A DNA stretch of 64,000 nucleotides from Daucus carota subsp. sativus. Lineage: Eukaryota; Streptophyta; Magnoliopsida; Apiales; Apiaceae. The translations under genes were made by a program, and so were the position numbers. Shown piece by piece: positions 31,268 to 60,008 of this stretch. The stretch is taken from NCBI RefSeq assembly GCF_001625215.2, contig NC_030387.2, forward strand, positions 40,633,606-40,697,605, given 5' to 3'. Numbering within the stretch: the first letter of the stretch is position 1; each line of letters begins with the position of its first letter. The notes under the pieces were generated by a model. That model did not search any database and was not told the DNA's origin. It saw only the letters and a list, made by a program, of their open reading frames with translations.

Positions 31268-34200
31268 TTATGCTGCACTTGCGGGTGTTTCAGTTTCCAT
31301 TGGCTCTTCAGAGGCCAATGGGACTTCGGTTCCAGGTGTGTTACTAGCGTCTTTGTTGGGGTCACCAGAATTTTCTGCACCATGAAACTGCTCACTGCTT
31401 GGAGATGAAACTTCAGGTGTGACTGGCTTAGCTGCCTTTGGTTTTGGTTTTGTCATTATCGGTCTGCAGAACCTGTACCGAGAGAAGCAATTAATATTAC
31501 AACATGGAATACTCGAGCAAGAAACAGGAACATAGTAACATGTAAATACCAATATGTAAAGCCTTAGTAATCCTTCAATTATTTTAGTAGTTCGACCATA
31601 AAGGATATGTTTAGCTACAACATGGCATAAAATTATCTTGCAGGCAGCATTCAGTTGTATAATAGTAAATGAGATATTATTAACGTATATACATATGCCC
31701 AGATCCAAGAAACTATTAACACTACTAGAGCTACCTACCCAGGAAATTAGTAACACTGCTAGACCTACCTTGAGACGTAAACCAAAACAACAACACACAA
31801 AATTCGGGGTGGGACGAAACAATAAAAGAAACAATTTTGTAGTGCATCCTACATAAGCGGACCTTTACCTGTCAAGAGCTTCAGCTTTCTTTTTCAAATC
31901 AGCTGACAAGAGAACTGGAGTAGCATGTTTTGGTAATGAGTCCTGGTGCTGCTTTTTCTCCCTTAACCAAGCTTCAGCATCCGCACATTCCTTCAGAACC
32001 TACACATTCAGACATTTAAGAGCTATGGTGAATTACAATTCATCTTAATACCAAGTATGAGAACAGAATATCTGAAACTTTGCTACCTTCTCTTTCTCAG
32101 CAATGTCAATGTGATCAAACTTAGAATCAGGTGACATTACTGCTTCTCTGTAGCTATTAATGCAATAAACTAGTTGATCAACCACAGATCCCCTCTCCAA
32201 GTGTTCCTTGTAGCGCAGCTCAACAGGATCACCACGCTGCAAGTACCTTCAGTCAATTTGGAATACATAGAACAATAATTAAAACAAAAACAAATTTGGC
32301 ACAGCTATTAACCTTTTTCAGTTCTTCAAGCTTGGCAACATATACACCCTTGGTCTCATCCTCACCATCTTCATACAACCAATCTTCAACCTGCTGAAGG
32401 ATGGCGGTGAACTCCTCTCTCTCCGGATCAGTTACAAAGTCATGATATTTGTCATGTAGCTGGGAGAAAACACAGATGTAAGACAAAATACTCAAATAAC
32501 CATGATAAATGGTTTAATGTTAAACTATAGCAAACCTTGTTTCTCATGTCATAGACATAAGCCTCCACAGCATTCTTTTTGTCTTTGGTTTCTTCCATAA
32601 CTCTATCTTGCAATGCCATTTCAAATTCCTTCTCCACAGCTTTCTGCACATCCGTAGGTTGCATTCCGCCGTAAACTAGCTCTGTCACTGGTATGTCAGT
32701 CTTTTTCACCTTCTTCTTTGGAACCTCAACCTACATTAGAATATAATAATCCATTAAACAGGTTGGACACCATGTATTTAAATGAGATAATATTTAAAAC
32801 GTTCGGAATACAAATTAGAAAGTAAAGAGCATAGGCTGTAGAAGAACAGTTATGTCATGAAAGAGAAGTAATACAATCAGCAGATGACAAAATTGATGTT
32901 ACTAAGCACAACACCATAAAAATAGTTGTTTATGTGCAAAGCATCTTGCTAAACATTCCAAAGAATTTGTCTGACCTTGGATTCCGTTTCCATTTGGACA
33001 GGGACGTCTCCTTGAGCACCATTGGCAGAGCCAGGAGCATTAGCAGCAGTACTCTTTGCATCTTCCATGTCAACATCATTCTCAGCACCACTAGAAGGAG
33101 CAGGTACAGGTGGAGATTCATCTGCATCCATCTTTGCAGTCTCTTTAACGACTGGAATCTCAACATCCTCCTCCAGTAGCTGAAATTATTATAAGGAATA
33201 AAACATAATGCATATTAGAAGACCTCAAGCTCAAAACGTAATAACAAAAGACATGCCAATAGCTAGGAAGACACATCCATGCTTTTCTCATTAAATTCAA
33301 ATGTAACAACAAAGTGGGTTATCAGTAGAACTTACTGTTGCCGACTCAATGGACACAACACCATGTAGATTCAGACGAACTTTTACTTTCACTTTTGCTC
33401 GTTCACTTTTTGTTGACTGAAAAGGGCCAATCTGTCCAACAATAACGACATCAAAAATAGTAAGATGAAAGATATGTAGCATCAACCACAGACTAATTAT
33501 GTGGATTAACTTGTTTCTAAACATCAGATGCTGCAGTCTCAAAACCTGAATAATTTCCATACCGTGTATGTGCTGATCATGGCGGGTGCTTGAACTTCAT
33601 TTACATCAGCATAGTGTACATCTACTGTAAATGTTCCAAACCTGAAGAATGTCAGGGCCTTCACACTAGGTATCGAATTTCCTTTTGGAAAAACAATAGT
33701 ACTTTGTTGATTGTCCGCTCCATTCTGAGCATCTGGAGCTGTGCCTTTCCATGACAAAGCAATTGTAAATGGGAAGCTCTCATTGACCTTCAAAACCGAA
33801 ATGAAATCAAAAAAGACTCATAATTACAAATTAAAAAAGAATAATAATAGGTTTTAAATCACGGTGAATCTAATTCGATATATATATACACATATTAAAC
33901 AAAAAGCACAAACAAGCATACGGAAAAACAACCCTCGACTGAGGTGGAAAACAAATCCCTCCCCATGGACAAAAAATATGCCTACCTGGAATTCTCTCAC
34001 TTTAAAAGTGGGGCTAAGAATAGCACATTCCAATGCACAACCTTTCGCAACACATTCACTAGCATTCATTGTCCGCCTAGGCTCCTTACCAAAGAACTCC
34101 GTCAAAATTTTCATTATTGCAGGTACACGGGACCCCGAACCAACAACCTCAACAGCATATATATTTTCTACAGTCAGCCCTGCCTCTGAAAGAGCTTTCT

Positions 34201-35155
34201 CCAACGGCTTCTTAACTCGCTCCAGTATCGGAATGCTAATTTGTTCAAACTCGTCTCTTTTGATGAAGCCTCTGACATCCTTCTCGTCCATCAAGCACTC
34301 TATATTCAAAGGCGCCTCTGGATTTGCACTGAGAACCTTCTTCAGTTTCTCACATGCAGCACGAAGCCTAAGGGAGGCCCTTGCATTTTGGTAAACATCA
34401 ATCTTGTATTCGGTCTTGAATTTTTCAGCAAAGTTTTGAAACAGCACTTCGTCAAAATCTCTCCCACCAAGTGACCGATCAAACGCATGGGCTAATATTT
34501 TCAGTTGGCCTTTCTTTAAACCAGCTATACATACTTGCATACTAGCATGACCAATATCTACAAAGGCAACATTCAGCTGGTCATTCTCCGGCAAATCAGT
34601 CTTGTAAATACCATATGCAAGAGCAGTAGCTGTAGTTTCATGAATGAGTCTAAGTGGGTGCAACCCGGCAATCGTAGCAGCATCTAGAACAGCACGCCTT
34701 TGAAGATCAGTGAAATAAATAGGAATCCCAATGCAGCAATCAACCACAGCGGCATTCAGATTCTTCTCCGCTATACTTTTCAGATCTGAGAAGACCATTC
34801 CCAATACTTGGGTTGGTGTAAAGCTTCTCATTTCTCCAAGATATTGAGCATTAATTAATGGATACCCATCAGGACCTTCAGTTACAGAAAAAGGGAGTGA
34901 CTTGATATCCCGCTGCAGTTCAGGATCCGAAAACTGGCGTCCAATCAGCCGCTTAATCTGAGAAATTGTGTTTTTTGGGTTCATCATACTTGAAGCGGCA
35001 CCAGCTGTTCCAAGGAAACGTTGCTTTTCACCGAAGCATACAATAGCAGGAGTCTCACGTTTAGATTCATCATTCAGTACAACATCAATCCCCCGTTGCC
35101 TTGCAACAGCAACAACACCACTCTCATTCCCAAAATCAAAACCAACAACGCTCAT
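31268..35155 (-). CDS. HSP70-15: HSP110-class heat shock protein 70 (Hsp70-14/15-like), copy A
   Basis: A cytosolic HSP110/SSE-type chaperone that acts as nucleotide-exchange factor for Hsp70. Nine coding exons on the minus strand: 35155-33986 (390 codons), about 33787-33563, 33432-33336, 33181-32975, 32733-32536, 32459-32313, 32236-32084, 32000-31869 and 31476-31268 (boundaries good to a base or two). They give about 843 aa; Arabidopsis Hsp70-14/15 have 831. Exon 1 is the ATPase domain starting MSVVGFDFGNESGVVAVARQ and containing IHETTATALAYGIYKTDLPE and FVDIGHASMQV. The Hsp110 DFG-N-E signature replaces the DLGTT of true Hsp70. Exons 2-3 are the beta-sandwich. Exon 4 is the acidic loop (NDVDMEDAK). 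Exons 5-9 are the helical C-terminus, ending TETPASAA with no EEVD tail. The leader intron is 36709-35161. Confidence 0.93.
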
Positions 35156-35160
35156 CTTCC

Positions 35161-36770
35161 CTATGGTTCAACACAAAGACCAACAACCAAAATCAAAATA
35201 AATAAATTGCTCATAAAGTAATAGCATCTCTAAAAAACTATACCCATACATTAAAGCCTTATCACAATCAAAAACTGTCTTGAGACACTTAAAAGCAAGT
35301 CTAATTCAGGAAAAAAATATATGCAGTATAACCTAGGCATGCATCCTAGGTGTAGCTCAGGTTTTTGTTAAATTCAAACAACAAACACCACAGTAAATAA
35401 AAGAATTGAGTCAAAACCTAATTAGTCTCAAAAATAAAAACACGTCTTAATAAAAACCAGAATAGTAGATACGATGTTCCAACATTCTATCAGAAATTTA
35501 TATATTAAACATTCTACTAAAATTTAAATTAAGCGTCAGAGAAATCATCATTCCAACATCGTATAGACCCGGGAGAAATTTATCATCATACAAACATTAT
35601 ATAGACCCATTCAACACGGACATAATTAAGTTGAGATCATCATAAATAACTATAATGGCCAAAAACAGTATGAACGATCTAGAAACGCACACGTAATCAT
35701 TATCAACGAAATAGTTAACGTCCCAAAACTAAAACAGTCCACTCATTTAAAACCGCTGCCAACCAACTTCGTGGGAACACTCAGAATCATTCAAAAATCC
35801 TATCCAAGCATTCAAAGCCAGACTACAACCGACAAAACATAATGCAGCCCAACCTCCAAACCTCCGCATACGAACAACACACACAAACAAATATTGACTT
35901 CCAGAATTGATCCCACACACTCCCACCGCAGTCAATTTCCAAATTCAGCTAAACGATAAACAAACACAATGCATCCAATATCAACAACACCCTAACAAAA
36001 CCCTTAAACTCAATAGTTAATGTCCCAAAATTAAAACAGTCCACTCATTTAAAACCGCTGCTAACCAACTTCGCGGGAAAACTCAGAATCATTCAAAAAT
36101 CCTATCCATGCATTCAAAGCCAGACTAACACCGACAAAACATAACGCAGCCCAACCTCCAAACCTCCGCATACGAACAACACATACAAACAAAAATTGAC
36201 TTCCCAGAATTGATCCCACACACTCCCACCGCAGTCAATTTCCAAATTCAGCTACACGATAAACCAACACAATGCATCCAATATCAACAACACCCGAACA
36301 AAACCCTAAAACTCAATCATATAGACATAAAGCTCCAAACTTTACCACCAATATCAATATCATAAAGAGTAATCACACGAAATCAACAACCACCAACACA
36401 ATTTTACATAGATTACGGGAAAAATCTAAAACAAAGCTAAAGTTTCAATCTTCAAATCAACATCAAAAAACACTAATTAACATAGAACCAAGATCAGTCA
36501 ACACAACTCCACATAAATCACAGTAATTAACCGAGAATTAAGCAAAAGTTTCAATCTTTACATCAAAATATCATACAAAAACAGTAACAAACACAGAATC
36601 AACATCAATCAACACAACTCCACTTACAATACAGTAATTCATAGTAAACTAAACGAATTACAGATCTGAAAATTGAGAATTAACAAAACAAAGTGAGTAA
36701 AGATCGTACCTTTAGGATGATCACTTTCACGGAGTAGTCAAATTAGTGTGTGCGTTGTGTTCTTTGTGTA
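35161..36770 (-). promoter_or_regulatory. 5' leader exon and 1.55-kb leader intron of HSP110 copy A
   Basis: A splice donor CTAAAG|GTACGATC lies at 36710/36709 and an acceptor AACCATAG|GG at 35161/35160, five bases before the ATG. The same arrangement is found for copy B, which supports a real 5'-UTR intron. Within it an about 280-bp segment is tandemly duplicated (about 35725-35990 and 36010-36290; both carry AAAACAGTCCACTCATTTAA). Confidence 0.75.
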
Positions 36771-36860
36771 TGAAATATAAGAGGGGGCAAAAAAAAAATG
36801 AAGGGTTTTAATATGTAACGGGAGAAGTGTAGAGGCCTAGAGGGGTCTCGAGCTTGTAAG

Positions 36861-36876
36861 CTCTAGAATGTTCCGT
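36861..36876 (-). promoter_or_regulatory. Heat shock element, HSP110 copy A promoter
   Basis: The sequence CTCTAGAATGTTCC contains inverted GAA-nn-TTC units with a partial third unit (CTC), fitting nTTCnnGAAnnTTCn. It lies about 100 bases upstream of the probable leader exon. The same element occurs upstream of copy B. Confidence 0.6.
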
Positions 36877-38058: not shown

Positions 38059-39042
38059 TTATGTAATATAAAAATATCATGGACATTTAAAGTATAAATT
38101 TTAATATTTCAGGTATATTATATCATATATGTCATGGATGGAATCAAATTTATTTTTAGAAGAAAAATAATTTTGAGTTTTAGATTGAGTTTAAAATCGT
38201 GTTTCAAATATATAATATTTCAGTGATAAACTTTATATTTCCGATAGTCTAATTTTATTTTTAACAAATTTTAATTAAAATTCGTCAAAGCGTATATTTT
38301 TTGAATAAAATAAAATAACATCGCTATTAATTAAAATGAAAAACATCACCTTCACGTTGTATTCTACACACGTCATCGCTAATTCAACATTATTAGTCTA
38401 TCAAGTATGACTGCAACACATCATCATTAATTATCCCAAATAAGATATTATAGATGTTAAATATATGGATAAATTGAGTTACACATTCATAACATGGATA
38501 TTAAAAATGATATTTTCATTATCAATTTAAAAATTATATTTTTATTTTTATTACAAATATATAAAACTTGTGATAGTTATATCATTTTTCAGATCAAATA
38601 TAAGATTATATAATATATTCGAATCAAGTTTGAGAATTTTGTACTAATTATAAATATTAATATTCCACGGTTAATTTAACGTGTGAATGATCTAATTTCA
38701 AGTTTTGGATCGAATACTCGTGTTTCAAATAAATTAAACTTCACGTATAGAAATTATCTTGATAGTGGAATCACATTTCCATATTTATTGTCACAAATTC
38801 ATTTCCGTTCTTATTTACAAAGATCGGCAAGTTTTTGATCCGATACATTTCCGAACCCGGTGATGTTGAGATTAGAAAGGATCTCACACAGACACAAATT
38901 CCAGGTGTATCATACATAACAAGCATAATAATAGTAGAAAGAACATTAACATAGTCTCATATCCACCTCTAGCAATCTTTTTGAAACCATTTTGTCCTAA
39001 TCAGAAATAAATCAACAAACAAACAAATTAATAAATAAATGC
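38059..39042. other. Spacer; from ~38820 homologous to the KAE1 3' flank
   Basis: The first 760 bases are AT-rich without features. From about 38820, words such as AGTTTTTGAT, CATTTCC, AACCCGGTGA, TGTATCATACATAA and ATCCACCTCT match 45940-46460 downstream of KAE1, with deletions. It is therefore a duplicated KAE1 3' spacer. Confidence 0.6.
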
Positions 39043-39126
39043 CAGACTGCAAGCAGTTCATCACTTATGAACCTTTGTGTGAAAGTTGATTCTTCATAGG
39101 GGTAGACCAACCATGAGCATAAGGAA
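39043..39126 (-). pseudogene. Remnant of the KAE1 last exon at the duplication junction
   Basis: About 80 bases match the last coding exon of KAE1 at 47254-47335, sharing GTGTGAAAGTTGATTCTTC, ATAGGGGT and CCATGAGCATAAG. The match has several substitutions and a one-base deletion, and stops at about 39126. Immediately after it begins sequence shared with the HSP110 copy A 3' flank. It is a non-functional exon scrap. Confidence 0.8.
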
Positions 39127-39411: not shown

Positions 39412-42400
39412 TTATGCTGCACTCTCGGGTTTTTCAGTTTCCATTGGCTCTTCGGAAGCCAATGGAACCTCGGTGCCAGGTGTATTCTCACTAGCATCTT
39501 TGTTGAGATCACCAAAATTTTCTGCACCATGAGACTGGTCACTGCTTGGAGAAGAAACTTCAGGTGCGGCTGGCTTAGCTGCCTTTGGTTTTGGTTTCGT
39601 CATTATCGGTCTGCAGAACCTGTTCATGCAAAGGCAATTAATAATAATACGATTAAAAGGAATACTTTAGCGAGAAACAGGAACATAAATATCCATATGT
39701 AGAGCCCTAGTAATCCTCAAATTTTTTAAGACCACAAAGGATATGTTCAGCTAAAACAGTGCATAAGAACATCTTGCAAGCAACATCCAGTTGTATAATT
39801 GTCAATGAGATATTATTAATGTATATACATATTCCCAGACCCAAGAAATTAGTAACACTACTAGACCATCCTTGAGACGTAAATCAAAACAACACACGAT
39901 ATTCGGAGTTTGATAGAACAGTAAAAGAAACAATTCTGTAGTACATCCTACATAAGCAAACATTTACCTGTCAAGAGCTTCAGCTTTCTTTTTCAAATCA
40001 GCTGACAAGAGAACTGGAGTGGCATGTTTTGGTAATGAATCTTGGTGCTGCTTTTTCTCCTTTAACCAAGCTTCAGCATCCACACATTCCTTCAAAACCT
40101 ACACATCCAGGCATTTAAGAGCTACGGTGAATTACAATTCATCTTAATAACAAGTATGAGAAAAGAATATCTGACACTTCGCTACCTTCTCCTTCTCAGC
40201 AATATCAATGTGATCAAACTTGGAGTCAGATGACATTACTGCCTCTCTGTAGCTATTGATGCAATAAACTAGTTCATCAACCACAGATCCCCTCTCCAAG
40301 TGTTCCTTGTAGCGCAGCTCAACAGGATCACCACGCTGCAAGTACCTTCAGTCAATTGGAATACATAGACAATAATAATCACAAAAACAAATTTGGCACA
40401 GCTACCAACCTTCTTCAGTTCTTCAAGCTTGGCAACATATACACCCTTGGTCTCATCCTCACCATCTTCATACAACCAATCTTCAACCTGTTGAAGGATG
40501 GCTATGAACTCCTCTCTCTCCGGATCAGTAACAAAGTCATGATATTTGTCATGTAGCTGGGAGAAAACACAGATGTAAGACAAAATACTCAAATAATCAT
40601 GACGAATAGTTTAATGTTAAACTAAAGCAAACCTTGTTTCTCATGTCATAAACATAAGCCTCCACAGCATTCTTTTTGTCTTTGGTTTCTTCCATTACTC
40701 TATCTTGCAATGCCATTTCGAATTCCTTCTCCACTGCTTTCTGCACGTCTGCATGTGGCATTCCCCCGTAAACTAGCTCGGTCACCGGTATGTCGGTCTT
40801 TTTCACCTTCTTCTTTGAAACCTCAACCTACATTAAAATATAATAATAAATCATACAGGCAGGACACAATATATTTAATTGAGAGAATATATTTAATTGA
40901 GAGGCAGGACACAATATATTTAATTGAGAGAATATGCAGAATGTTAGGAATATAAATTAGAAAGTAAAGGGCATAGGCTGTAGAAGAACAAAATTGATGT
41001 TACCAAGCACAGCACCATAAAAAACAGTTATTTATGTGCAAAGCATCTTGCTAAACATTCCAAAGAATTTGTCTGACCTTGGATTCGGTTTCCATTTGGA
41101 CAGGGACGTCTCCTTGAGCTGCATTCGCAGAGCCAGGAGCAGCACTCTTTGCATCTTCCATATCCACATCATTCTCAGTACCACTTGAAAGAGCCGGTGC
41201 AGGTGGAACTTCATCTGTATCCATCTTTGTAGTCTCTTTCACGACTGGAATCTCAACTTCCTCTTCTTCAAGTAGCTGAAATTTTTTTTGAGGAATAAAA
41301 CACAATGGATATTAGGAGAACTCAAGTACAAAACATACAAACAAAAGACATGCCAATAGTCAGGAAGACACTTCCATGCTTTTCTCATCAAATTAAAATG
41401 TAACAACAAAGCTGGCTAGCTATCAGTAAAACTTACAGTTGCCGACTCAATGGACACAACACCATGTAGATTTAGACGAACTTTTACTTTCACTTTTGCT
41501 CGTTCACTTTTTGTTGACTGAAAAGGGCCAATCTGTCGAAAACAATGATAATAATAACAGTAAGAGAACAGGAATGTCACATCAACCATAGACTACTTAT
41601 GTGGATTAACTTGTTTCTAGACATCAGATGCTGCAGTCTCAGAACCTGAATAATTTCCATACCGTGTATGTGCTGATCATTGCAGGTGCTTGAACTTCAT
41701 TTACATCAGCATAGTGTACATCTACTGTAAATGTTCCAGACCTGAAGAATGTCAGGGCCTTCACACTAGGTATCGAATTTCCTTTTGGAAAAACAATAGT
41801 ACTCTGTTGATTGTCCGCTCCATTCTGAGCATCTGGAGCAGTGCCTTTCCATGACAAAGCAATAGTGAATGGGAAGCTCTCATTGACCTTCAAAACCAAA
41901 AATGAAAATAAAAAAAGACTCATAATTACAAATTTAAGAAGAATAACAAGAAATCAAGTTTTAAATCATGGTGAATCAGTTCAATATATATCAAACAAAA
42001 AGCAGAAAAACAACCCTCGAATGAGGTGAAAAACAAATCCCTCCCCTGGACAAGAAAAATGTCTACCTGGAATTCTCTCACTTTAAAAGTGGGGCTAAGA
42101 ATAGCACATTCCAATGCACAACCTTTCGCAACACATTCACTAGCGTTCATTGTCCGCCTAGGCTCCTTACCAAAGAACTCCGTCAAAATCTTCATTATTG
42201 CAGGTACACGGGACCCTGAACCAACCACCTCAACAGCATATATATTTTCTACAGTCAGCCCTGCCTCTGAAAGAGCTTTCTCCAACGGCTTCTTAACTCG
42301 CTCCAGTATCGGAATGCTAATTTGTTCAAACTCGTCTCTTTTGATGAACCCTCTGACATCCTTCTCGTCCATCAAGCACTCTATATTCATAGGTGCCTCT

Positions 42401-43236
42401 GGATTTGCACTGAGAACCTTTTTCAGTTTCTCACATGCAGCACGAAGCCTAAGGGAGGCCCTTGCATTTTGGTAAACATCAATCTTGTATTCCCTCTTGA
42501 ATTTTTCAGCAAAGTTTTGAAAAAGCACTTCGTCAAAATCTCTCCCACCAAGTGACCGATCAAACGCATGGGCTAATATTTTCAGCTGGCCTTTCTTTAA
42601 ACCAGCTATACATACTTGCATACTAGCATGACCAATATCTACAAAGGCAACATTCAGCTGGTCATTCTCCGGCAAATCAGTCTTGTAAATACCATATGCA
42701 AGAGCAGTAGCTGTAGTTTCATGAATGAGTCTAAGTGGGTGCAACCCTGCAATCGTAGCAGCATCTAGAACAGCACGCCTTTGAAGATCAGTGAAATAAA
42801 TAGGAATCCCAATGCAGCAATCAACCACAGCGGCATTCAGATTCTTCTCTGCTATACTTTTCAGATCTGAGAAGACCATTCCCAATACTTGGGTTGGTGT
42901 AAAACTTCTCATTTCTCCAAGATATTGAGCATTAATTAATGGATACCCATCAGGACCTTCAGTTACAGAAAAAGGCAGTGACTTGATATCCCGCTGCAGT
43001 TCAGGATCCGAAAACTGGCGTCCAATCAGCCGCTTAATCTGAGAAATTGTGTTTTTTGGGTTCATCATACTTGAAGCGGCACCAGCTGTTCCAAGGAAAC
43101 GTTGCTTTTCACCGAAGCATACGATAGCAGGAGTCTCACGTTTAGATTCATCATTCAGTACAACATCAATCCCCCGTTGCCTTGCAACAGCAACAACACC
43201 ACTCTCATTTCCAAAATCAAAACCAACAACGCTCAT
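39412..43236 (-). CDS. HSP70-15: HSP110-class heat shock protein 70 (Hsp70-14/15-like), copy B
   Basis: Second tandem copy with the same nine-exon structure: 43236-42067 (390 codons, ATPase domain), about 41888-41663, 41533-41437, 41278-41076, 40832-40633, 40559-40413, 40336-40184, 40099-39970 and 39621-39412. In exon 1 it differs from copy A by only two residues that I can see (FKREYK for FKTEYK and APMNIE for APLNIE). The acidic loop and the C-terminal tail differ more; this copy has a shorter loop and ends TEKPESAA. All splice sites and the full frame are intact, so both copies look functional. As in copy A, the EEVD tail of cytosolic Hsp70 is absent, which is normal for HSP110. The C-terminal exons are assigned by homology with copy A. 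Confidence 0.93.
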
Positions 43237-43241
43237 TTTCC

Positions 43242-44960
43242 CTGTTCAACACAAAGACCAACAACCAGAGTCAAAATAAATAAATTGCTCATAAAGTAAT
43301 AGCATATCTCAAAAACTATACCCACACATTCAAGCCTTACTGTAATCAAAAACTGTCTTGAGACACTTAAAGCGAGTCTGATTCAGGAAAAAATATGCAG
43401 TATAACCTAGGCATGCAGCCTAGGCGTAGCTCAGGTTTTGTTAAATTCAAACAACAAACACCACAGTAAATAACAAAATTGAGTCAAAACCTAATTAGTC
43501 TCAAAAATAAAAACACATCTTAATAAAAACTAGAATAGTAGATGCAATGTTCCAACATTCTATCAGAAATTAATATATTAAACATTCTATTAATATTTAA
43601 ATTAAGAGTCAGAGAAATCATCATTCCAACATTGTACAGACCCGGGAGAAATTTATCATCATATAAACATTATATGGACCCATTTAACACGGACATAATT
43701 TAGTTGAGATCATCATAAATAACTATAATAGCCATAAACAGTATGAACGATCTAGAAACGCACACGTAATCATTATCAAAGAAATAGTTAACGTCCCAAA
43801 ATTAAAACAGTCCACTCATTTAAAACCGCTGCCAACCAAATTGGCGGGAAAACTCAGAATCATTCAAAAATCCTATCCACGCATTCAAAGCCAGAATAAC
43901 ACCGACAAAACATAATGCAGCCCAACCTCCGCATACGAACAACACATACATACAAAAATCGACTTCCCAAAATTGATTCCACACACTCCCACCGCAGTCA
44001 ATTTCCAAATTCAGCTAAACGATAAATAAACACAACGCACCCAATATCAACAACACCCAAAAAAACCCTAAAACTCAATTATAAAGACATAAAGCTCCAA
44101 ACTTTACCACCAAGATTAATACAATAAACAATAATCACACAGAATGCACACGTAATAATTATTAACGAAATCAGTATAATGTCCCAAAATTTAAATGGTC
44201 CACCCATTCAAATCGGCTACCAACAATACCCAGGAAAACTCATAAATCATAATCATTCAAAAATCCTATCCATGCATTCAACACTAATTCCGACAAAAAC
44301 ATAATGCAGCCCAACCTACACATGCAAACATCGCATACAAACAAAACTCGACTTCTTAAAATCAATCCAACAAACTCATGCAAATTCAGCTAAACGATAA
44401 AGAAACACAATGCACCCAATATCAACCTTTAAATCAATATCAACACAATAAACACTGATTAACACAGGATCAAAAACAACCAACACAACTCCACATGAAC
44501 AGTAACTAACCAAAAACTAAGCTACAGTTCCAATTACTACATCAACATCAATACAAAAAACACAAACCAGTACAGAATCAACATCAATCATCACAACTTC
44601 ACATAAATTACAGTAATTAATCGCAAACTAAGCTAAAGTTTCAATCTTTAAATCAATATCAACACAATAAACACTGATTAACACAGGATCAAAAACAACC
44701 ACCACAACTCCACATGAACTACAGTAACTAACTGAAAACTAAGCTACAGTTCCAATTACTACATCAACATCAAAACAAAAAACACAAACCAGTACAGAAT
44801 CAACATCAATCTTCACAGCTTCACATAAATTACAGCAATTAATCGCAAATTAATCGATTTACAGATCTGAAAATTGAGAATTAAGAGAGCTAAGTGAGTA
44901 AAGACCGTACCTTCAACCTAAAAGATGATCACTTTCAACACGCAGTCAAATCAGCGAGTG
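43242..44960 (-). promoter_or_regulatory. 5' leader exon and 1.67-kb leader intron of HSP110 copy B
   Basis: Donor TTGAAG|GTACGG at 44911/44910 and acceptor TTGAACAG|GG at 43242/43241. The sequence is collinear with the copy A leader. It carries its own tandem duplication of about 215 bp (about 44424-44640 and 44641-44850, each with CAACACAATAAACACTGATT and CACAAACCAGTACAGAATCA). Confidence 0.75.
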
Positions 44961-45065
44961 TATTTGTGTCTTTTTGTAAAATGAAATACCCAGAAGGGCG
45001 AAAAGAAACGAAGGGTTTAATATTATAAAAGAAAAGAGAGAAGTGTAGATGGGTCTAGAGCTAGT

Positions 45066-45083
45066 GAATGTCTAGAATGTTCG
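45066..45083 (-). promoter_or_regulatory. Heat shock element, HSP110 copy B promoter
   Basis: GAATGTCTAGAATGTTCG holds GAA-tg-TTC plus imperfect flanking units (TCT, GAA). It is collinear with the element upstream of copy A. Confidence 0.6.
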
Positions 45084-45099
45084 GTTTGAGTCAAAGTTT

Positions 45100-47200
45100 C
45101 TGCTTGACTTCTCTTAAACCCTAGTTTTTCATGTTCTAAGTTTTGGTGCTGTTTTGCATTCATATATTTGTTTAAAAAAAAATAGTATTACACATCATTC
45201 AAATTAAATTATTGATGTATGATATTTTATATCATTAATTTTTCTGATCATATCTATTAATTTATAAAATCAATATTTTTATTTGTAATTTGTAATATGG
45301 AAATGATCTAAATAATATGTTAAGATTAAGCATTAATAAAATATATATCCATTCTAAATAAAGCGGATTGATTATATTAAAATCATGACAAACAGAAGCT
45401 CATACTATGTCAATTAAAATTAAACCTTCTATAATATACATACATATATATATAATTTATTTAGGAATCAACTTTGATAAGAGGATATTTTTTACTTGTT
45501 CTATTTTAATATTCAAAATTTAATTCTAAAATTTTGATATAAATATAAAAGATTTTTAAAATTAATAAATAAGGTGTATAAACTAAATAAAATTATTAAA
45601 TTTTGAAGATAATCCCGCCTCTTGGCAAGTCTAATCATATAAAAAAATAAAAATTTACTGATCAAGCAACCAACTCCGCAAAGAGTATACATAAAATTGC
45701 ATATCTCGACAGTTAAATAAAATTTTGATATTTTATTGTGTATATATTCCTAGGATGGAAAGAAATTACATCCTATATAACAAAAGGGAAGACATTGAAT
45801 GCAAATTTAAGGACTTGTCATCGACAATAGAAAGGAAAGCATATTAAGAGATGGGACATAGAAAGAAACAAGTTATTAACAACTGGACTCTGTTGTCCAG
45901 CTATGGTCACAAAGTTCATGCATTGTTCTTATTTACAAAGAGCAACAAGTTTTTGATTTAACACATTTCCAAACCCGGTGAAAGGTTGAAGACGTAATGT
46001 TTCTTGAGCGGTAAGGCTTGAAACAAGAACACAGAAAAGATTTCGACTGGATATTAAGAAATGATCTCATACAAAGACAGACGCGATTCCAAGGAATAAT
46101 GATCTGTGGAGTGTATCATACATAATAAAAACAACATTCGGCTAAATAACATCAATAGTATCATTATGAATGAAACTGTAAGCCACCTTCCACCTTGCAT
46201 TCTTTTGATGCACACAATGTCAGATGAAGTGGTAAAAATACTGTATTCTGTTTGTACATAATTTCGCAGCTTCGAACATTCATCAAATCACATCAATCAT
46301 ATTGTACTGTAATAACATTGCTTTCAAATTCTCCCATCCCGACTTCAACTTTATACCTGTCATAAACAAACCACCACAAGACAATCTCATTCAGTGGGTC
46401 AAAGCTTTATTAAATTAGAGACGATAGTCTAGTATCCACCTCTGGCAATTTTTTTTTGAAATCATGCATTTCTCTTGACGGGAAAAAATAAAAGACAGTT
46501 AATTAATTAAGAGACAAAAGAAACTGAGGAAGATGTCCATGCAAATATATTCAGTGGGCTGGATTAACTTTTTGCTATCTGCGCCAAGGTTGCAAATTGG
46601 TAGACAAAAATAAAACGATAAATGACTATATTCAAAGAATTTCTCTTAAACAAAATTGCTTGATTATTTCTTTTTTGCTGGAATACCAGATATATATTTT
46701 CTATTTTGTTTTAGGTTGTACAGTTGAACCACAATATATTAATTAACGTTTTCAGTCCCAAATAGGATACAGTTAGTGTATATTCAACCTCGATAGGTTA
46801 ATAATATCGATTATAAAATCTACCAGTCCTGAAACTATTAATGTAATGAGGTTTAGCTGTATTACTTGAATAATTTATAGTTGTGTTCATATTCATGTTG
46901 TAGTGTGTGCACGCACGCTTGTCACAAGCTAAAAAGCTGATGGTAAATTGCGGAGATATTTCTTTCGAAAAATTAGGAGAGCGCATAAAGGCAGAGAAGA
47001 CAAGGAACCATAATTTATGTGCATTATCCAACAGGAATTTTTTTTTGAGGATAACAGGCATGGGTAGATACCATATATGATCCAATTTTGTGGTCAAAGG
47101 ACATCTTTTTCTAGGAAACTCATGGTGCTCCCTTGATCACTCACATCAGTTTGTCCATGTGTGTAAAATATAAAATTACCTCACTATAAGCATTAGATCT
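45100..47200. other. KAE1 3' flank and spacer
   Basis: AT-rich spacer between the copy B promoter and the KAE1 stop. The part 45940-46460 is the counterpart of 38820-39040. No gene is supported; the frame at 46798-47097 is unrecognised. Confidence 0.45.
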
Positions 47201-50005
47201 TTAACAGGCTTCTCCACTGACAGAATTCATGTTTGACGATTCCTTCTCTCGCCAGACTGCAAGAACTTCATCAGTTCTGAACCGTTGTGTGAAAGTTGAT
47301 TCTTCCATAGGGGTCGACAAACCATGAGCATAAGCAAGAAGACCGGTATATGCAATCATCGCTCCATTGTCAATACAGTACCTGTCATCAGTAGCAAAAA
47401 GATTTCCGCCTCTCTCAGAGCACATAGTTCTCATCATATCTTGCAACCGCTCATTGCAGCCCACTCCGCCAACAATGAGAACATCTTTCTTGTCACAATG
47501 TGCCATTGCTCGTTCTGTAATCTCAACAAGCATTGCAAACACAGTTTCCTGAAACACAAGGTATAATTCATGTCAAATTTAAATGCACTTGTGTTTGGTT
47601 GGGAAGAATGGAATGGAATGTGTAAAAATAAAAGAAAATACTAGATATAGAAGGGAAGTTCTGGGAAAAAAGTGAGTAAATGCAAAATTGTTATGATGAG
47701 ATTCTAGAAGAAATTGGGTATGGGAGAGAATAGGGATTCCTTCTCAAATTGGGGGTGTGACTTCTAGTATAGGGTGTAAGGAACGAAATTCTTAAACTAT
47801 TGTCCATAACATAGTTCAAATTTCATTCCGTTCCTTCGAAATTTATTCACCCCAACCAAACACAACACTTGTTTAGGCGCAGATATGACTTTAAGAAAGA
47901 ACTAAAGAAAATGTGAAAATCCTACCTGTAGGGAATAGCACAAATCTGCAGGCGTGCACTCTTTATTTTTCAGCTTCTCTTCAGCAGTGGTTTCGATGTA
48001 ACTTAATATTCCACTGAATGAAACATCCATTCCTTTTACAGCATATGGCAGGTCTAAGAACTTTTCTCCTTTCTTAGCAAGCTGTGAAGAAAACCACATC
48101 TAATAAATAACTAGAGGCGTGTATACACTGGCTAATTGTCATAAATTTATAACAAAAAAAAACGATGTGCACATTTATTTTTGCACACCCTATATTGCAG
48201 TGTTCTAATAAAGCAGCAAGCCGTCAGTAAGATGACCTTTTCTAACCCTTTAACAGATTTGTAAACAGAACTGTACGCGGATTATTGATACTATGTAGAG
48301 TAATACACATTATCAAGAACTATTATAATGCTTACATCTAGTATTAAGTAACAAAATACCATCTATTAATCATAAAAATAGTTCTTTTCCGGCCACCCGA
48401 AGGAACATGAGGAGTTAAACACCTTCAGTAAATTGAAATTTTGGGTAGATGATGCTGATAACATGACAAAATAAGAAAGTTATTTACTATTTGCCTTTTA
48501 CCAGAAAAAACAAGGTAAACTTACATGCTGTCTGTTACATGGAAATTTACTTGAACATTGTTTATTTGTAAGTAAACTGGCCTCAACGTTTATCTCCTCA
48601 ATCTTCACAACGATTTTGATCTCACTGTCCAACAAGTTGGCCATAAGTTTAGTAATTTTTTGCTTATTATTTTGATTAGAAATTATGATACAAGATCGGA
48701 ACTGGTTAAAAAGGCAGACCCTTTCGAATTGTAGAAGTTTAGTTCAAATCTGTTACACATTAAGTTTAGTTGGGTGCCTATATATAAATAAAATAATTGA
48801 ATTAGCAACATAATCTCATAAATGTTTTAACGTGATAGCAACCAGACGGACATGTAGATGAAAATAATACTTTGTTGAAATAAAAGTTTGAATAACGATA
48901 ACACATAACAGACGCATGGCTTAGTATTCATCAAATGTAGGGATTTGAGATGGCTTGTAATATAAGATGTTGTCAAATGTTGAAGTGGTAATAAGGAAAA
49001 TGAGTAACTGTATTGTCATGAAACACGCATGCAAAAATAAAAGCCTGGTAATCTTAGGGAATCTCATGCACGTAAAATCTATCTTCAATAGGAAAGATAT
49101 ATATCTATCTAAATTAAACAGATAGATAAAATTAAGTCACTATCATGGTGCAAGGTGTAGCACACCACAACTGTAGTCTATGATCTAAGCTATTTATTGA
49201 CATGAATCCAATTTTCTTAGTTTTGTCAGGATCCGTTAAATAGCTGGTTCAATTTAACCTTTTTTACCAACCGCGACATGTTCTAATAAATAACTGATGT
49301 TTATTATTATTTTTACCTTCCAATAGCTTTAACTAAAATTTTACATTCTATTCGAGCAATATGGCAAACAAATTCAGACTAATATTATGCCTTAATTAAT
49401 TAAGTAAACATTACATAACCAGAATCAAATACCAAAAACAAACAACAAACCTGTTCAATGTTATAACCTGGAGCTGGATCATTTGACAGTTCCAAAACTC
49501 TAGCAAACCGATCCAAACAGTTCCCAACAGCAATGTCAATTGTCTCCCCAAAAATACGATACTTGCCTTCACTATAGGCAATCACTTGTGTGTTACCACC
49601 ACTCACATACAACACCACTGGATCTTTGGCCCCAGTTACAATCCTCCCCATCTCAATATGAGCAACACAGTGATTCACCGCAACAATTGGCTTCTTCCAA
49701 AGTTGTGAAAGTACCCGTACAACAACTGCAGCAACCTGCAGTGGTGCACCCATACCTGGACCTTTGGTGTAACAAAGACAATCAATCTCATTGGGAGTTA
49801 CTTCAGCAGCTTCGAGAGCAGATTTGATCAACGGAAGAACATGTTGAAGATGGTGCTGTGCTGTTTCTCGAGGAAGAAACCCTTGACCTGGAGGGGTAAT
49901 GTACGTATGTCGTGGATTGGATAAGATTGTGCCATCTAAACTTACAACGCCAACGCCGATCTTGTTGGCTGAACCCTCAAACCCTAAGGCTAACAATCTC
50001 TTCAT
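47201..50005 (-). CDS. KAE1: KAE1/OSGEP, tRNA N6-threonylcarbamoyladenosine synthase subunit
   Basis: The catalytic subunit of the cytosolic KEOPS complex, which transfers threonylcarbamoyl to A37 of ANN-decoding tRNAs. Three coding exons on the minus strand: 50005-49451, 48081-47926, 47548-47201. They give 185+52+115 = 352 aa, the usual plant length. The start [20 protein letters not shown] matches the family; the GTG-initiated extension to 50029 is not used. The ASKHA fold is evident. The metal-binding His pair appears in [11 protein letters not shown] (HxxxH form). [12 protein letters not shown] is the nucleotide-binding loop, and [13 protein letters not shown] with [13 protein letters not shown] is the C-terminal motif with the metal-binding Asp. 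No organellar presequence is visible, which separates it from the mitochondrial OSGEPL paralogue. Its leader is homologous to that of the neighbouring HSP110 genes. Confidence 0.95.
47588..47870. mobile_element. Small TIR element (MITE) in KAE1 intron 2
   Basis: Ends are inverted: GTGTTTGGTTGGG at 47591 and CCCCAACCAAACAC at about 47850-47863, both next to a nearby ACTTG. The interior is GGAATGGAATG-rich. It is about 275 bp without coding capacity, consistent with a hAT-like or Harbinger-like MITE. Confidence 0.6.
48082..49450 (-). other. KAE1 intron 1
   Basis: A 1.37-kb AT-rich intron. I see no nested gene or recognisable mobile element in it. Confidence 0.75.
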
Positions 50006-50032
50006 CTCCCAATATCTATCTAGCAACACTTA

Positions 50033-52720
50033 CCTGTCATCAATAAGACTAGCATATTGTCAAAACAAAAAGAAAAAAGATTTTAATGATTTCTCTTATG
50101 TTTAAACCACAACTAAGAAAAATAATTAAATATACAACTCGTACTAAGAATACAATAGGTTTTTATATCGAAATGCTAATAACAAATCATATTTTAATCT
50201 TGATTGTGTTTCGGCTTTGGTAATTCGTGAACTTTGATTGATTGGTCATAGGAATGCATGATCATACAAATTGCAATACATGCAATTGGATTATAAATCA
50301 TAAGATCAAATAACTTGGATAGTCTTCTAGACAAACTTGATATTATGAACTTTAGTTAATGGTTTAAGATGGAACGATGAAGCATAAAAGGCTATACAAA
50401 TGTTTCACTCCTTTTTGATAAATATATAAATAATTTAACTTAATTGAAAAAGTTCCTTGTTATATTTCACAATCTACAAGCAAGATAAACAAACTTAGTT
50501 AACCTAAAACCTGGTCTAATATCTATAAACACATCTTAATAAATACCAGCACATAAAATTTAACATCCCCACACTCAATCATAATGAACAGGACATATTA
50601 ATAATGTCCCAAGGCTCAATCAATAAGTAGAAAAGGGGACATTCCAAAACTGCTCAAAGTAAGTGTGGGAGAAACTTATCATCATTCAAACATTAAATGG
50701 ACTAATTCAGATGAGATCATCATAGATAACTATGCTAACCTGAAACACTATGAAAGATTAAGCAGCACGCACAATGTAATAGGGGCAGACCCAGTTTATG
50801 ATTACATGGGCAAACAAATTTGAGTCTAAAGTCTAGCGTGCTTGAGAAAATCTTTTGCATAATGACAATTTTTTACTATGTTACCCGGACTCTTCATTTT
50901 GTGTCGAGTACCCGTGTCGGACACTCGACACCCGGACATGGGTATGGACACTCAGACACTTATTTTAAGCCAAAAACATGTAACATTTTCAAATTATTGC
51001 TGAGTCCGACACTCGGACACGTATCCATGTTGGACACTTTTAGCCGAGTCCGGGTAACATAGATTTTTTATGCATCTTATATCACTCGATGTTGTACTCA
51101 TACAATTTTATGACCAGTTAATAAGCATTTTATATCAAGTGTTGTAAAAATTGGTCAACCTTAGACAATTATTCTAAAATCAACCGAATCGACTTTAACA
51201 GATGTTAAAAAAAAATCGAAGGTATACCCAAATTTTAGTGATTAAAAAGACTCTACAATCTTACTATATATCTAAAGTTATTAACTTATTATCCTTGGAA
51301 AAATGATAATGAAAATTAAAAGTTCACATACAAATTGGAATTTGCTTGAGGAAAGAGGATATAATAAAAACCGAAAAAGTAACAGGAAAGTAGGCCAAGG
51401 ATTGTGTATGCATTGAAAAATGTAATACATACGACATACCTATTACACATAAAAGGTGTAATTCCGTAGAATAAACAATTACTTACAATAACAATGTGCA
51501 GGGGAATTTTATCATACAATAGATATACGCTCTATTATAGATGATCAAAACTTAGAGCTTATAAGAATGTAGATTACAAAAGAGGCATATAGAAAAAGTA
51601 AACTTATATACCTTAATTATTAAGTTTTGAAATTGTGATATGTGAGAACTACCATAGGTTTCATTCAAAACTAGAGTATAACTAGTTAAGGGCCTTGATG
51701 CAATTTCAACTTACAGCAGAAACAACTGACATATGAAATGTAACTCGAGAATGAGCAATTGTGCTAGAAAGTAAAACGGACCTGACCTAAGGAAATTTAA
51801 AATGAAAAATTGATAGCAATTTAATAGCAGGAAATTTTTGGCTTCCGGTCAGCCCATGGATGTAAATATGTAATCACTATCAACAACATCATTACAATGT
51901 CCTAAAATTAATCAGAACTAAAATCGGACACTTACTCAACTCCAATTAAACCAACTGTTTGGACACGTTAGCATCACTCGAAAAGCATATCAACACACAC
52001 AAAGCCGGACTACCCGGACAAAAACATAATGCAGTTCAGCATAGGCATAAACACACCACAGGATTACGAACACACACAAGCATGACTCCAGTTCTCATCG
52101 ACACTAACACACACAAAACCAAGTCAATTTAAGAAACCAGCAAACCTAAACCCTGCTCAAGAATCTAAAAACAACAGTTTAACTACTTATAACAACATCA
52201 GAATCAACATAAACACATTGAGTGAAGATAAAATCAAGAACAACTGAGATAATTTTGAGCAAATACAATGTCAATTGAACAGTAATTATTAAATTAAACA
52301 GATTAAAGATCATACTAACACACTCAACCTCGACAAATCTGATAAAAACATAATGCAGCACAATATAGCCATAAACACAACAGACAATTACGTAAATGCA
52401 CAAGTATAAGTCGGGTCTTATCGGAACTAACTAACAGTGTAACACAAAGTACAGTCAATTTACGAAACCAGCTATCCTACACCCTGCTCAAGAATCTAAT
52501 AACAAGAGTTTAACTACTTATATCAACATCAGAATCAACATAAACACATTCAGTGAAGATAAAATCAAGAACAGTATGAATTGAACAGTAATTATTGAAT
52601 TAAATAAATTATAGATGTGACGATTTAAAATTAAGAGATGGGGGTGAGCAAAGATTGTACCTTGTTAAAGATGATTCTTTGGGATGAAACAGACACGAAG
52701 TCAACTAATTAGTGTGTGTG
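50033..52720 (-). promoter_or_regulatory. KAE1 leader exon and 2.6-kb leader intron, HSP110-like
   Basis: A donor-like AACAAG|GTACAATC lies at 52661/52660 and an acceptor GATGACAG near 50034. The block aligns with the HSP110 leaders. It shares GGGAGAAAYTTATCATCATW and GAGATCATCATARATAACTA, plus ACAAAACATAATGCAG and the leader end. It carries an extra insertion of about 1 kb (50790-51860). Two internal copies of a 300-bp segment lie at about 51990-52180 and 52320-52560. Confidence 0.65.
50877..51062. mobile_element. Foldback MITE (CTATGTTACCCGGACTC ends)
   Basis: The left end CTATGTTACCCGGACTC is the exact reverse complement of the right end GAGTCCGGGTAACATAG. The 186-bp interior also folds back (CACTCGACACCCGGACAT against GTCCGACACTCGGACACG). 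No coding capacity. This end sequence is common in eudicot MITEs. Confidence 0.85.
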
Positions 52721-52770
52721 TGTGTGAAGAAAAGGGGACGAGGGTTTTCTTTGAAGGGTTTAAGGGTGTA

Positions 52771-52790
52771 GTAGAACAATGTTGGGGATA
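52771..52790 (-). promoter_or_regulatory. Degenerate HSE-like site upstream of KAE1
   Basis: GTAGAACAATGTTGGGG sits at the position corresponding to the HSP110 heat shock elements, but the GAA-nn-TTC spacing is broken. Confidence 0.35.
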
Positions 52791-52799
52791 ATATAAAAG

Positions 52800-53837
52800 G
52801 GCATTTATGTAAATTTAGAGTGTGTATTATATTTTTTTTTCAAATTTACTTTTGTGAAAGTTTGGCTATTTATTCTCAATTTCAAAAAAAAAAAAAGAAG
52901 AAGAAGAAAGTTTGGCTATTGAATTTCAAAGAGACCTGCTCTACGGATTTCAGATTTATTACAAAATTCTGATTAAGTATTAAAATATATATTTTATAAA
53001 TTTATTTATTACATTCTAATTTAACTAAAACTTTACTCCATACTTAAAAAAAATTAATTCTGATTTATCGAAAAAATCTCCAATAAATTCTTGATAAATC
53101 TTCATTTAATAGATAAATTGATTAGTTTAATTTTTGATTTTTGCAATCACAAAATAACTAATAGCCTATAAAAGATAATAACAATAATAATATCGTTAGA
53201 GTGATGATCCATATAATTTGATTCTGATAATTTGTTTTTTTACCGAGATTCTGATACATTTATTAAGTGAAATTTTTATATTACTAAATATTACAATTTA
53301 AATATCTAAACATTTACTCTATTTACTCGAGTGGTGTCGACCTCGAACTCCAAAATAATGTCATTTTTGTCACCTATCCGGCCGAGTAAAATTTTTTGAA
53401 ACATCGAAAAAAATGAGTGATTGATAAAAAGAACGCAATTTACGGTTTCATAATCGACAAAAGAGAGGCCAAGATACATGAGACGGAACAAAATAGAGAA
53501 CAAATTTCAATGGTTAGCTTGGAACCTTCACTTGACTTGTCTTGAGAAAACTATTTTGTCCAGCAATATGGTCCATTTCATGCACACCACCTCTGCTGCT
53601 GCTGCAAATAAGTTGAATCCATCTCAATCTTATAGGTACGGAGTTGAGAGGCTAATCTAGGTTGAAGTCCTGGCTGAGTCAAAAATAGTTATCTTTTAGA
53701 TTCCGGATAATTTAAATTTCTGGTTCCGCCACTCACAATCACACTAAACTCTATATTTATAACCCGATATAATGCACTTCATGTCTCTGCAGTTATCATC
53801 CAAAGTATCAAACTTTCTTAAAAGTAGCTAATTAGCT
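52800..53837. other. Intergenic, AT-rich
   Basis: Contains the distal KAE1 promoter with an A-run and GAA repeat at about 52882-52908, and the upstream region of the small frame at 53838. No gene is seen; the frame at 53478-53660 is unrecognised. Confidence 0.4.
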
Positions 53838-57113: not shown

Positions 57114-58060
57114 GTTCTTAATCTCTGCAGTGAATGATGATCAGGGTATTTTTTGCAAGAAAATCAAGAAACTTCAAGAAGCAGCATTGTAAATGTTGCG
57201 AAAACCCGAAAAGATGATCAAGAATGTGGGGATTAAGATGGCTCAATGGGGGTGATTTGATGCACAGATGACAGTGATTATGTGCATGAAATCTACAAGA
57301 GCAGAGGTACTAATGACTAATGAGTATATGAAGATTGTAGAGGCCTAGAGGAAGAATATTTGGACGCTTTATTTTCGAAAACAGGAGTAAAGTGTGTTGT
57401 TTGTTACATTTGACATATATAGACATGGTCTGAGTGTAGTGAATATGGTATTATAGATGGGTGATGCCGTGAGAGTGCCTAAAAGGTAAGGGTGATTTCA
57501 GGATAGAAAAATTTTGGCCCTCGTATAAGACCCGAAACCAGAATCCGACCTGAATATGCGAACTGATTTATAATTGAGAGACAAAATTTGAAAGTGATCA
57601 GAAAATCACCCGAAATGAATAAGAATTAAAAATTTCATTCCTAAAGTTTTGAACTTTTAGTTTTATTCGATTTTAACTGATTTTAACCTTGAATATGTTA
57701 ATCTCGAATGATTTTTTTACTTAATCATCAAAATCTCGAAATAAGAAAAAGCAAGAGTAAAATTGTGTATATCAAAACTCGCGGAAATGAGGACTAAAAA
57801 AATCCGGGGATGGACAAATATATTTTCTGCGAAACCATTCCAACCTGTCAGGTTTGCGGTCTGGTGTGGGTCAAATTCGGTCAACTTATGGTACAATGTA
57901 CAAGTACTCTAGTGTGTGCAGAGCTTCTTTTTGTTACAAATCTCGTGTTCCAGCTATGAAGTACTGTACTCTTTCTGTCCTTTTGATTTCTATACACTTT
58001 TTTTCGAGGATTTCTCATTCAATTTTATACATTTCAATATTTTTCTAAAGTAGTCAATCA
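57114..58060. other. IST1-like promoter and intergenic sequence
   Basis: The leader and promoter of the IST1-like gene lie within about 57114-57450. At 57964-58050 a CTTTCTGTCCTTTTGATTTC segment resembles a MITE end. No gene is seen. Confidence 0.4.
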
Positions 58061-59208: not shown

Positions 59209-60008
59209 TTTTTATAATATAAAAATCTCACTCACCCACTAACTTCATCTATTTTTTCAAATTTATCACTTAAATATTAATGAGTCTCACCACTTTATCT
59301 ACTTTTCTTTCTCTTTTTTATTACTTTAAATTACTTTATACATTTTTCTTAATCTCCGTGTCCGTACAAATGTATATATCTCAAAGGGGCGGAGGGGTTA
59401 ACAAAAATGCAAGTACTTGTGAACTAGCTGTGGAGCTGTGAATGTGCAGTTGGTTTTAAGCCTTGAAGGCGTTGATGGCGAGTAAAGCGTGTGTTGTTGA
59501 CTCCATCTCAGCAGCCACTCTAACAGCGGCTTGGTTGTCCGGCCGCTAAAAACGAGCAGGGAATGGGTTTGAGAGAGATATTCAAAATTTTATTTTTATT
59601 TTCATGATTTTACAAGATAAAAGTTCATACTCTCTCTGTCTCATTTAATTCTATACATTTCTTTTTAACTGCTCGACACGCATTTCAATACTCTTATAAA
59701 ATATAGTTCCGTAACTTATTTTTGAGATTTTCTTTTTTTTTGTATAAAAATATAACATCCAAACTTTAATTCAGAAAAGAAAAATTTTAAAAATAAATTA
59801 CCCAACTACATTTTACAGGAGCATTAAAATCCGTGCCGTGTCCCCGTTTCCCAATGTATACCATATCATATATTAAGATTCAATTTTTTGTTATTATTTT
59901 AACAATTTATAAGTGATTCATAATATATACCATATCATATATTAAGATTGTTACCTCTTTCCGGGTATTAAATTCATGATACTAATAGAACAAAGGAGTC
60001 AACCTGTC
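59209..60008. other. Intergenic with a diverged MITE
   Basis: At about 59625-59850, sequence similar to the Stowaway-like MITE at 13734-14011 is found (CTCTCTGTCTCATTTAATTC, ACACGCATTTCAATACTCTT, TTAAAATCCGTGCC). A short frame at 59475-59549 (MASKACVVDSISAATLTAAW) resembles a targeting peptide start but is too short to call. Confidence 0.5.

Follow-up and report, generated by a model that had tools for sequence, protein, structure and literature searches.

The classical cases of regulatory capture involve genes that start out promoterless, e.g., organelle transfers and retrogenes. Rice rpl6 gained its 5′ untranslated region (5′-UTR) via a transposable element, and the presequences of rice rps11-1, Arabidopsis sdh3 and carrot rps10 are described as copies from atp2, hsp70 and hsp22 (PMC2631504); sdh3 genes with hsp22 or hsp70 parts are described for other plants (PMC4045975). 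Chimeras arising from tandem duplications in Drosophila yakuba often change in expression, and 24 of 76 were upregulated (Rogers et al. 2017, PMC5460883). Here we describe a locus on chromosome 7 of carrot (Daucus carota subsp. sativus), contained in a stretch of 64,000 nucleotides that was analysed as a whole and is called the window in the following. The gene in question is KAE1, whose putative non-coding 5′ leader is homologous to the leaders of two neighbouring HSP110 genes. We assign a probability of about 0.7 to the reading that KAE1 carries a captured HSP110 5′ leader.

KAE1, HSP110-2 and HSP110-1 (K, H2 and H1 in the comparisons below, where H3 denotes HSP110-3 on chromosome 2, or C2) all occupy the minus strand and follow one another head to tail. 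In the direction of transcription, KAE1 (47.2-52.7 kb) is followed by HSP110-2 (39.1-45.1 kb), a KAE1 relic (39.1-38.8 kb) and HSP110-1 (31.0-36.9 kb). The KAE1 gene is intact, with three coding exons and 352 amino acids. Its protein scores 422.9 bits against TIGR03722 (arch_KAE1), for which the curated cut-off is 375, as a full-length KAE1, the t6A synthase of KEOPS, and its top PDB chain is 8k20_A (E 4.5e-214). A retrogene origin is ruled out because the gene retains two coding introns. Genome-wide searches, which covered 441 Mb in 11 contigs, found fragments of KAE1 elsewhere and no second complete copy. For the chaperones, the first-exon open reading frame (ORF) of HSP110-1 alone was compared; among the best 60 of 124 PDB matches it reaches 359-358 bits with SSE1/HSP105 and at most 277 bits with HSP70s, and is thus closer to HSP110 than to canonical HSP70. 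Self-BLAST of the window at E 1e-3 revealed no match between the coding sequences of KAE1 and HSP110, which belong to different families. HSP70-type proteins are members of the broad ASKHA ATPase fold group. Kae1 is assigned to the same group in the literature excerpt available, and the two genes, called unrelated in the original prediction for this locus, are better described as not detectably related by sequence.

That KAE1 exon 1, its donor and the larger part of its leader intron are homologous to HSP110 is well supported. As predicted, the shared blocks and a GTAC donor stand in order upstream of KAE1: GGGAGAAAYTTATCATCAT is found at 35571 (H1), 43644 (H2) and 50667 (K), GAGATCATCATARATAACTA at 35633 (H1), 43706 (H2) and 50713 (K), and ACATAATGCAG at 35837, 43910, 44299, 52024 and 52348, with positions given on the plus strand although the genes themselves are on the minus strand. 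The splice sites listed in Table 1 are all predictions; the donor coordinates of K and H2 were verified by eye, and that of H1 was obtained by the same arithmetic. Pairwise alignment of the leaders yielded significant, ordered similarity of K to both HSP110 genes, in collinear chains of 15 pieces and 432.9 bits (K-H1) and of 14 pieces and 383.8 bits (K-H2), scores that take in weak pieces with E up to 10. For comparison, 500 dinucleotide shuffles for each pair gave maxima of 270.7 (K-H1) and 286.4 (K-H2) bits, and 56 overlapping real pieces of the window of equal length gave maxima of 218.2 and 222.2 bits.

The strongest piece, 50667-50773, shows 71-72% identity (E 1.7e-14 for H1, 1.5e-15 for H2) and was also recovered by self-BLAST of the window, where it matches 43644-43764 (E 1.1e-12) and 35571-35691 (E 1.4e-11). 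Further pieces are 51949-52034 against H1 (E 1.6e-8), the exon-1/donor piece 52585-52675 (E 6.7e-7 and 8.7e-6), and 50524-50549, with 88.5% identity over 26 bp and E about 3.6e-4. Local scores for exon 1 plus donor, namely 56 (K-H1), 52 (K-H2) and 43 (K-H3), were reached in none of 2000 mononucleotide shuffles and in none of 44 AAGGT-anchored controls for any pair. In MAFFT alignments, identity between the K and HSP110 leaders ranges from 57 to 68%. The locus thus combines significant, ordered homology of the non-coding 5′ parts with coding sequences that are not detectably similar, the pattern expected of a captured 5′ leader.

Table 1. Features of the KAE1-HSP110 array; positions refer to the window.
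Feature	Position	Strand	Remarks
KAE1 putative non-coding exon 1 plus any core-promoter DNA homologous to HSP110	52661..52770	-	MAFFT alignment with H1, H2 and H3
KAE1 leader intron, predicted	50034..52660	-	2,627 bp; GTAC donor 52660, ACAG acceptor 50034
HSP110-like distal half of KAE1 leader intron	51868..52660	-	contains internal tandem duplication
KAE1-specific insertion	50774..51867	-	1,094 bp; flanked by 7-bp direct repeat ATTACAT (51874-51868, 50780-50774)
MITE-like element	50877..51061	.	185 bp; perfect 16-bp terminal inverted repeats; within insertion
Best conserved block of K, H1 and H2 leader introns	50667..50773	-	two ATGATGA-type motifs
Last clear HSP110-like block	50524..50549	-	homology then fades near 50460
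KAE1-specific 3′ end of leader intron	50034..50460	-	427 nt; single copy in genome search; TATAAAA at 50167
KAE1 coding exon 1	49451..50005	-	
KAE1 coding exon 2	47926..48081	-	
KAE1 coding exon 3, through stop	47201..47548	-	
HSE-like GAACATTCTAGAC, HSP110-2 promoter	45070..45082	-	outside the part shared with KAE1
HSP110-2 leader intron, predicted	43242..44910	-	GTAC donor 44910, acceptor 43242
HSP110-2 first coding exon	42064..43236	-	
Relic of KAE1 exon 3 plus 3′ flank	38786..39126	-	fused to HSP110-2 3′ end; frameshifted
HSE-like GAACATTCTAGAG, HSP110-1 promoter	36861..36873	-	window position by arithmetic
HSP110-1 leader intron, predicted	35161..36709	-	GTAC donor 36709, acceptor 35161
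HSP110-1 first coding exon	33983..35155	-	top solved structures yeast SSE1 and HSP105

The match between K and the HSP110 leaders is interrupted because K contains an insertion of 1,094 bp. When this insertion is bridged, the alignment is continuous over ~300 bp at 68-69% identity (E 1.7e-24 for H1 and 6.5e-24 for H2). Within the insertion, the element resembling a miniature inverted-repeat transposable element (MITE) is of high copy number in the genome (565 first-look candidates, 40 of which were scored), and for 51080-51867 the genome search found a single copy. The K intron also carries an internal tandem duplication, 51986-52242 / 52311-52573, with 80% identity between its halves. An internal tandem duplication of ~210-300 bp is in fact a feature of each leader intron, located at 35710-36014/36012-36317 in H1 and at 44422-44631/44641-44853 in H2.

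Similarity among leaders may also arise when a transposable element or another repeat has settled in many of them, and the locus does contain repeated DNA. The HSP110-2 leader piece 44559-44774 recurs, over up to 216 bp and at 83-89% identity, at eight other loci on C1, C3, C5 and C8, where a transposon family carries it, and of the two loci scanned one has a tnp2 (CACTA-type) transposase ORF; in addition, there is the high-copy MITE in the K intron. Neither of the two falls into the part shared by K and HSP110, and the K leader matches none of the eight transposon-family loci at E 1e-3. The block 50667-50773 occurs at three places in the genome, all of them in the K/H1/H2 array, and the proximal HSP110-2 leader as query returned five matches, every one in H2, H1 or K. 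Since the DNA search skips very common words, the absence of further copies is strong but not absolute. The original prediction had named a repeat dispersed over many loci as one finding that would speak against it; the shared block was found in the array only, and we consider this explanation extremely improbable.

Within the shared block, identical columns are clumped (53 of 60), with permutation p-values of 0.0038 (H1) and 0.0090 (H2) from two comparisons that are not independent. The clumping suggests constraint on a part of the intron in KAE1 and HSP110 alike. A small ATG frame in the K block was considered as protein-coding and discarded, as it is not kept in H (by eye). Block conservation would also be explained by a box C/D small nucleolar RNA (snoRNA) residing in the intron of both genes, for which ATGATGA-type motifs on the sense strand and Rfam C/D matches to SNORD18 (26.7 bits in H1, 23.7 in H2) and sR3 (18.2 bits in K) could be quoted. 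All of these matches stay below the gathering score, which is 41 for both families, and K and H match different families; in the window, a tRNA alone reaches an Rfam gathering score. A conserved D box is lacking (by eye), and folding is not in excess (z 0.19, 1.10 and 0.90). With neither a gathering score reached nor C and D boxes both in place, a snoRNA host intron is highly unlikely.

Introns in 5′-UTRs can have promoter or enhancer activity (PMC2631504). It is conceivable, although we would not expect it, that the captured leader unites KAE1 with the HSP110 genes in a co-regulated unit, with common start-site and leader-intron control exerted via 50667-50773. HSP110 chaperones are nucleotide-exchange factors. 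Such a unit would subject t6A synthesis and the HSP110 chaperone to the same control, and both translation fidelity and chaperone capacity would obey one growth signal rather than heat.

On the promoter side, the homology ends ~100 nt beyond the donor, at TTAAACCCTTC. The original prediction that the promoter and the sequence beyond the leader exon are shared may hold within these ~100 nt and goes no further, as the shared stretch ends before the site resembling a heat-shock element (HSE), which is located 163-171 nt (H1/H2) and 248 nt (H3) upstream of the donor. Each of H1, H2 and H3 has at least one HSE-like site. In K, 700 bp were inspected and contain neither a perfect 2-unit HSE nor a 3-unit HSE with up to one mismatch; judged by alternating GAA/TTC units, KAE1 shows no sign of a heat-shock-type promoter driven by heat-shock factor (HSF). 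By chance, 0.25-0.27 HSE-like sites are expected per promoter, and therefore the absence from K is unremarkable, while the single HSP110 sites are weak evidence. The further proposal of a tRNA t6A enzyme regulated through a chaperone-type leader finds no support in a shared stretch that falls short of the HSE-like site and in a K promoter devoid of one.

At the other end, the KAE1-specific stretch 50034-50460 is either a fusion point or the native 5′ region of the gene. Several observations weigh against a captured leader. The region 50006-50470 is not significantly similar to HSP110 by shuffles (p 0.16 and 0.38), nor are the last 115 nt of the K intron HSP110-like (p 0.18-0.99); the last 90 nt are borderline, as 7 of 138 anchored real controls reach the K-H1 score and 4 of 138 the K-H2 score, and thus the exact position of the join is uncertain. 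An HSP110-derived acceptor region was discarded as a candidate, being not significant against shuffles and borderline against the anchored controls. A TATAAAA motif lies 162 nt before the KAE1 ATG, and the predicted KAE1 acceptor directly precedes a donor-like GTAAGT. Given this motif and an intron 3′ end that is not significantly HSP110-like by shuffles, KAE1 could still owe its transcription to a native promoter. Single windows of 30 columns show no significant conservation (p 0.21 and 0.31). Finally, genome searches with K 52480-52860 and K 51880-52480 matched only K with its internal repeats and did not reach H1, H2 or H3, and K was not recovered with the distal HSP110-2 leader as query. 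This outcome of the K queries excludes a dispersed repeat in the distal K parts. It also shows them to be too diverged for a match to H1 or H2 on the genome scale, and hence the pairwise tests are what supports their homology.

One reading of the same facts holds the leader to be dead, the remains of a third HSP110 copy that has lost its body, with KAE1 using its own proximal promoter in 50034-50460. It would account for a proximal segment that is single copy and not significantly HSP110-like by shuffles, for the TATAAAA motif, and for a KAE1 leader intron broken up by a 1.1-kb insertion. It is at odds with the intact GTAC donor and exon-1 end, and with conservation that is clumped at the 60-column scale instead of decaying evenly. 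Moreover, a search limited to the first-exon protein of HSP110 gave no match in the interval from the leader to KAE1. We regard a dead relic as unlikely and prefer the captured leader. What KAE1 would have obtained is less than the 5′ regulatory unit of the other family that had been claimed: exon 1, the donor and most of the intron are included, the HSE-like site and the intron 3′ end are not.

With regard to the direction of transfer, the relatives of the HSP110 genes were compared. A genome search with the HSP110 first-exon protein, in which 96 of 120 candidates were scored, gave 98 matches, including HSP110-3 on C2 as a close relative of H1/H2 (95% over residues 1-391) and three more distant HSP110-type copies with a full first exon (60-62%). 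In all six HSP110-type genes a leader intron is predicted to immediately precede the start codon (by eye for the distant three); it measures ~250 bp in H3 and ~150-260 bp in the three distant copies (by eye). H3 has the exon-1/donor sequence in common with H1, H2 and K, and inspection of 8 kb upstream of H3 did not recover the long intron blocks that these three genes share. Because the introns of H3 and the distant copies are short, the long intron of K, H1 and H2 looks derived in the chromosome-7 lineage, and this favours a transfer from HSP110 to KAE1.

The opposite course, in which the leader passed from KAE1 to HSP110 ahead of the duplication behind the chromosome-2 copy, draws on the distances in the exon-1/donor region, where K, H1/H2 and H3 are about equidistant. 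Over 203-210 columns, exon-1 identities are 0.55 (K-H1), 0.53 (K-H2), 0.58 (H1-H3), 0.51 (H2-H3) and 0.50 (K-H3), and such near equality counts against a firm polarity. Similarity of the K donor to distant HSP110 copies is at chance (p 0.47 for K-B1 and 0.91 for K-B3). Nevertheless, the opposite course would need an extra loss to explain the missing long blocks upstream of H3, and the leader intron predicted before the ATG in all six HSP110-type genes speaks against it; we consider it distinctly improbable. Movement of the leader from HSP110 to KAE1 is accordingly probable, not proven.

The chromosome-2 relative lies in a 17-kb segment (C2:50752000-50769000) with matches to window positions 22.6-23.0 kb and 54.4-54.8 kb, on either side of HSP110, as well as to HSP110 itself and to a tRNA-Leu, which is inverted relative to HSP110. 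The synteny markers are a Myb/SANT-like gene at 21.5-22.7 kb, HSP110, and an ORF at 54.4 kb; further matches, to window positions 13.8-19.2 kb and 59.7 kb, fall into repeated sequence and were excluded. KAE1 is absent from the 17-kb segment, and an HSP110 gene with similar exon-1/donor sequence but no KAE1 beside it again favours HSP110 as the source of the leader. By our own NG86 script, synonymous divergence (dS) of HSP110 exon 1 amounts to 0.83-0.87 between chromosomes 2 and 7 and to 0.06 between H1 and H2. The latter value probably reflects gene conversion, as H1-H2 identity is 76% around exon 1 and 93-95% in the proximal leader. Along the H1 and H2 leaders (35161-36949 vs 43242-45150), identity was observed to be 90-95% up to ~36014/44079 and ~69-78% thereafter. 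This sharp step suggests that the gene bodies have been converted and the promoters have not. The identity of 57-68% between K and H leaders implies that their split predates the H1-H2 duplication.

As to the origin of the structure, we propose that, before the local HSP110 duplication, a rearrangement of the array joined the non-coding exon 1, the donor and most of the intron of an HSP110 gene to the KAE1 coding region, bringing along any core promoter within ~100 nt of the donor. Breakpoints within the leader intron of HSP110 and just upstream of KAE1 would suffice for this in one or two steps, either by tandem duplication or by a duplication and a subsequent deletion. The join would lie inside the intron, within about its last 430 nt (50034-50460), and consequently the KAE1 protein would not be altered by splicing from the HSP110 donor to an acceptor just before the ATG. 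The leader could supply KAE1 with start-site, splicing and intron-mediated enhancement functions, the HSE-like site not being included.

The relic of KAE1 exon 3 joined to HSP110-2 demonstrates that the array rearranges with breakpoints inside genes. At its junction, TTGCT is common to the parental sequences, and the relic now reads TTCCTT (by eye). The relic points to a tandem duplication of a unit composed of the KAE1 tail and HSP110. Less favourable to the proposed origin is that the window, upstream of K, yielded neither a second KAE1 nor a relic of it nor a duplicated spacer. After a tandem duplication in one step, a second KAE1 or a repeated spacer should be left behind, and these must have been lost if this route holds. 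Apart from this, inverted KAE1 fragments, consisting of exon 1 (94.5%) and intron 1 (80-91%), were observed at C7:40751204-40751294 and C7:40756891-40757036, ~54-59 kb beyond the window, and 19.5 kb of sequence there contain no leader match. The similarity between 37146-38079 and 58060-59230 was examined as part of the duplication of the array and rejected, for it belongs to a repeat family with copies near C7:40.747-40.748 and 40.758-40.762 Mb. This family has internal repeated units.

KAE1, which we take to be an old nuclear gene already owning a promoter, differs in this respect from genes transferred from the mitochondrion to the nucleus. It differs also in gaining no targeting peptide, and in having a physical neighbour as its likely donor rather than a transposon or a distant locus. 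In common with those transfers, a recipient takes the 5′ unit of an existing nuclear gene; some of the donors named are heat-shock genes, and the two rpl6 copies diverge near the centre of a 5′-UTR intron, a situation comparable to that of KAE1 (PMC2631504). The D. yakuba chimeras resemble it in that tandem duplications ignoring gene boundaries fuse the 5′ end of a gene with the 3′ part of a different one (PMC5460883). Those chimeras are segregating population variants, whereas the KAE1 event looks old and affects the only complete KAE1 found. As with the Oryza gene fusions (PMC9199173), fusion in a plant yields a new gene structure; unlike them, the KAE1 fusion is non-coding and 5′.

A survey of carrot HSP70 genes reports syntenic HSP70 pairs on chromosomes 2 and 7, in line with the C2/C7 relation seen here; in its accessible text, UTRs were not detected in its gene models, and the terms "hsp110" and "threonylcarbamoyl" have no occurrence (PMC12892451). 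A literature search returned no report of an HSP110-KAE1 leader among the matches listed, subscription papers being mostly outside its coverage. Gene models devoid of UTRs conceal events of this kind, and leaders should not be presumed native to the genes that bear them. In the present case, an established housekeeping gene, of which one complete copy was found, appears to have swapped its 5′ unit with a neighbour, and the path is traceable since the locus still has its insertion, the relic of a duplication and, as a control, a syntenic segment lacking KAE1. Leader capture as such is a known kind of event (PMC2631504, PMC5460883), to which KAE1, with a chaperone neighbour as the likely donor, adds a new example.

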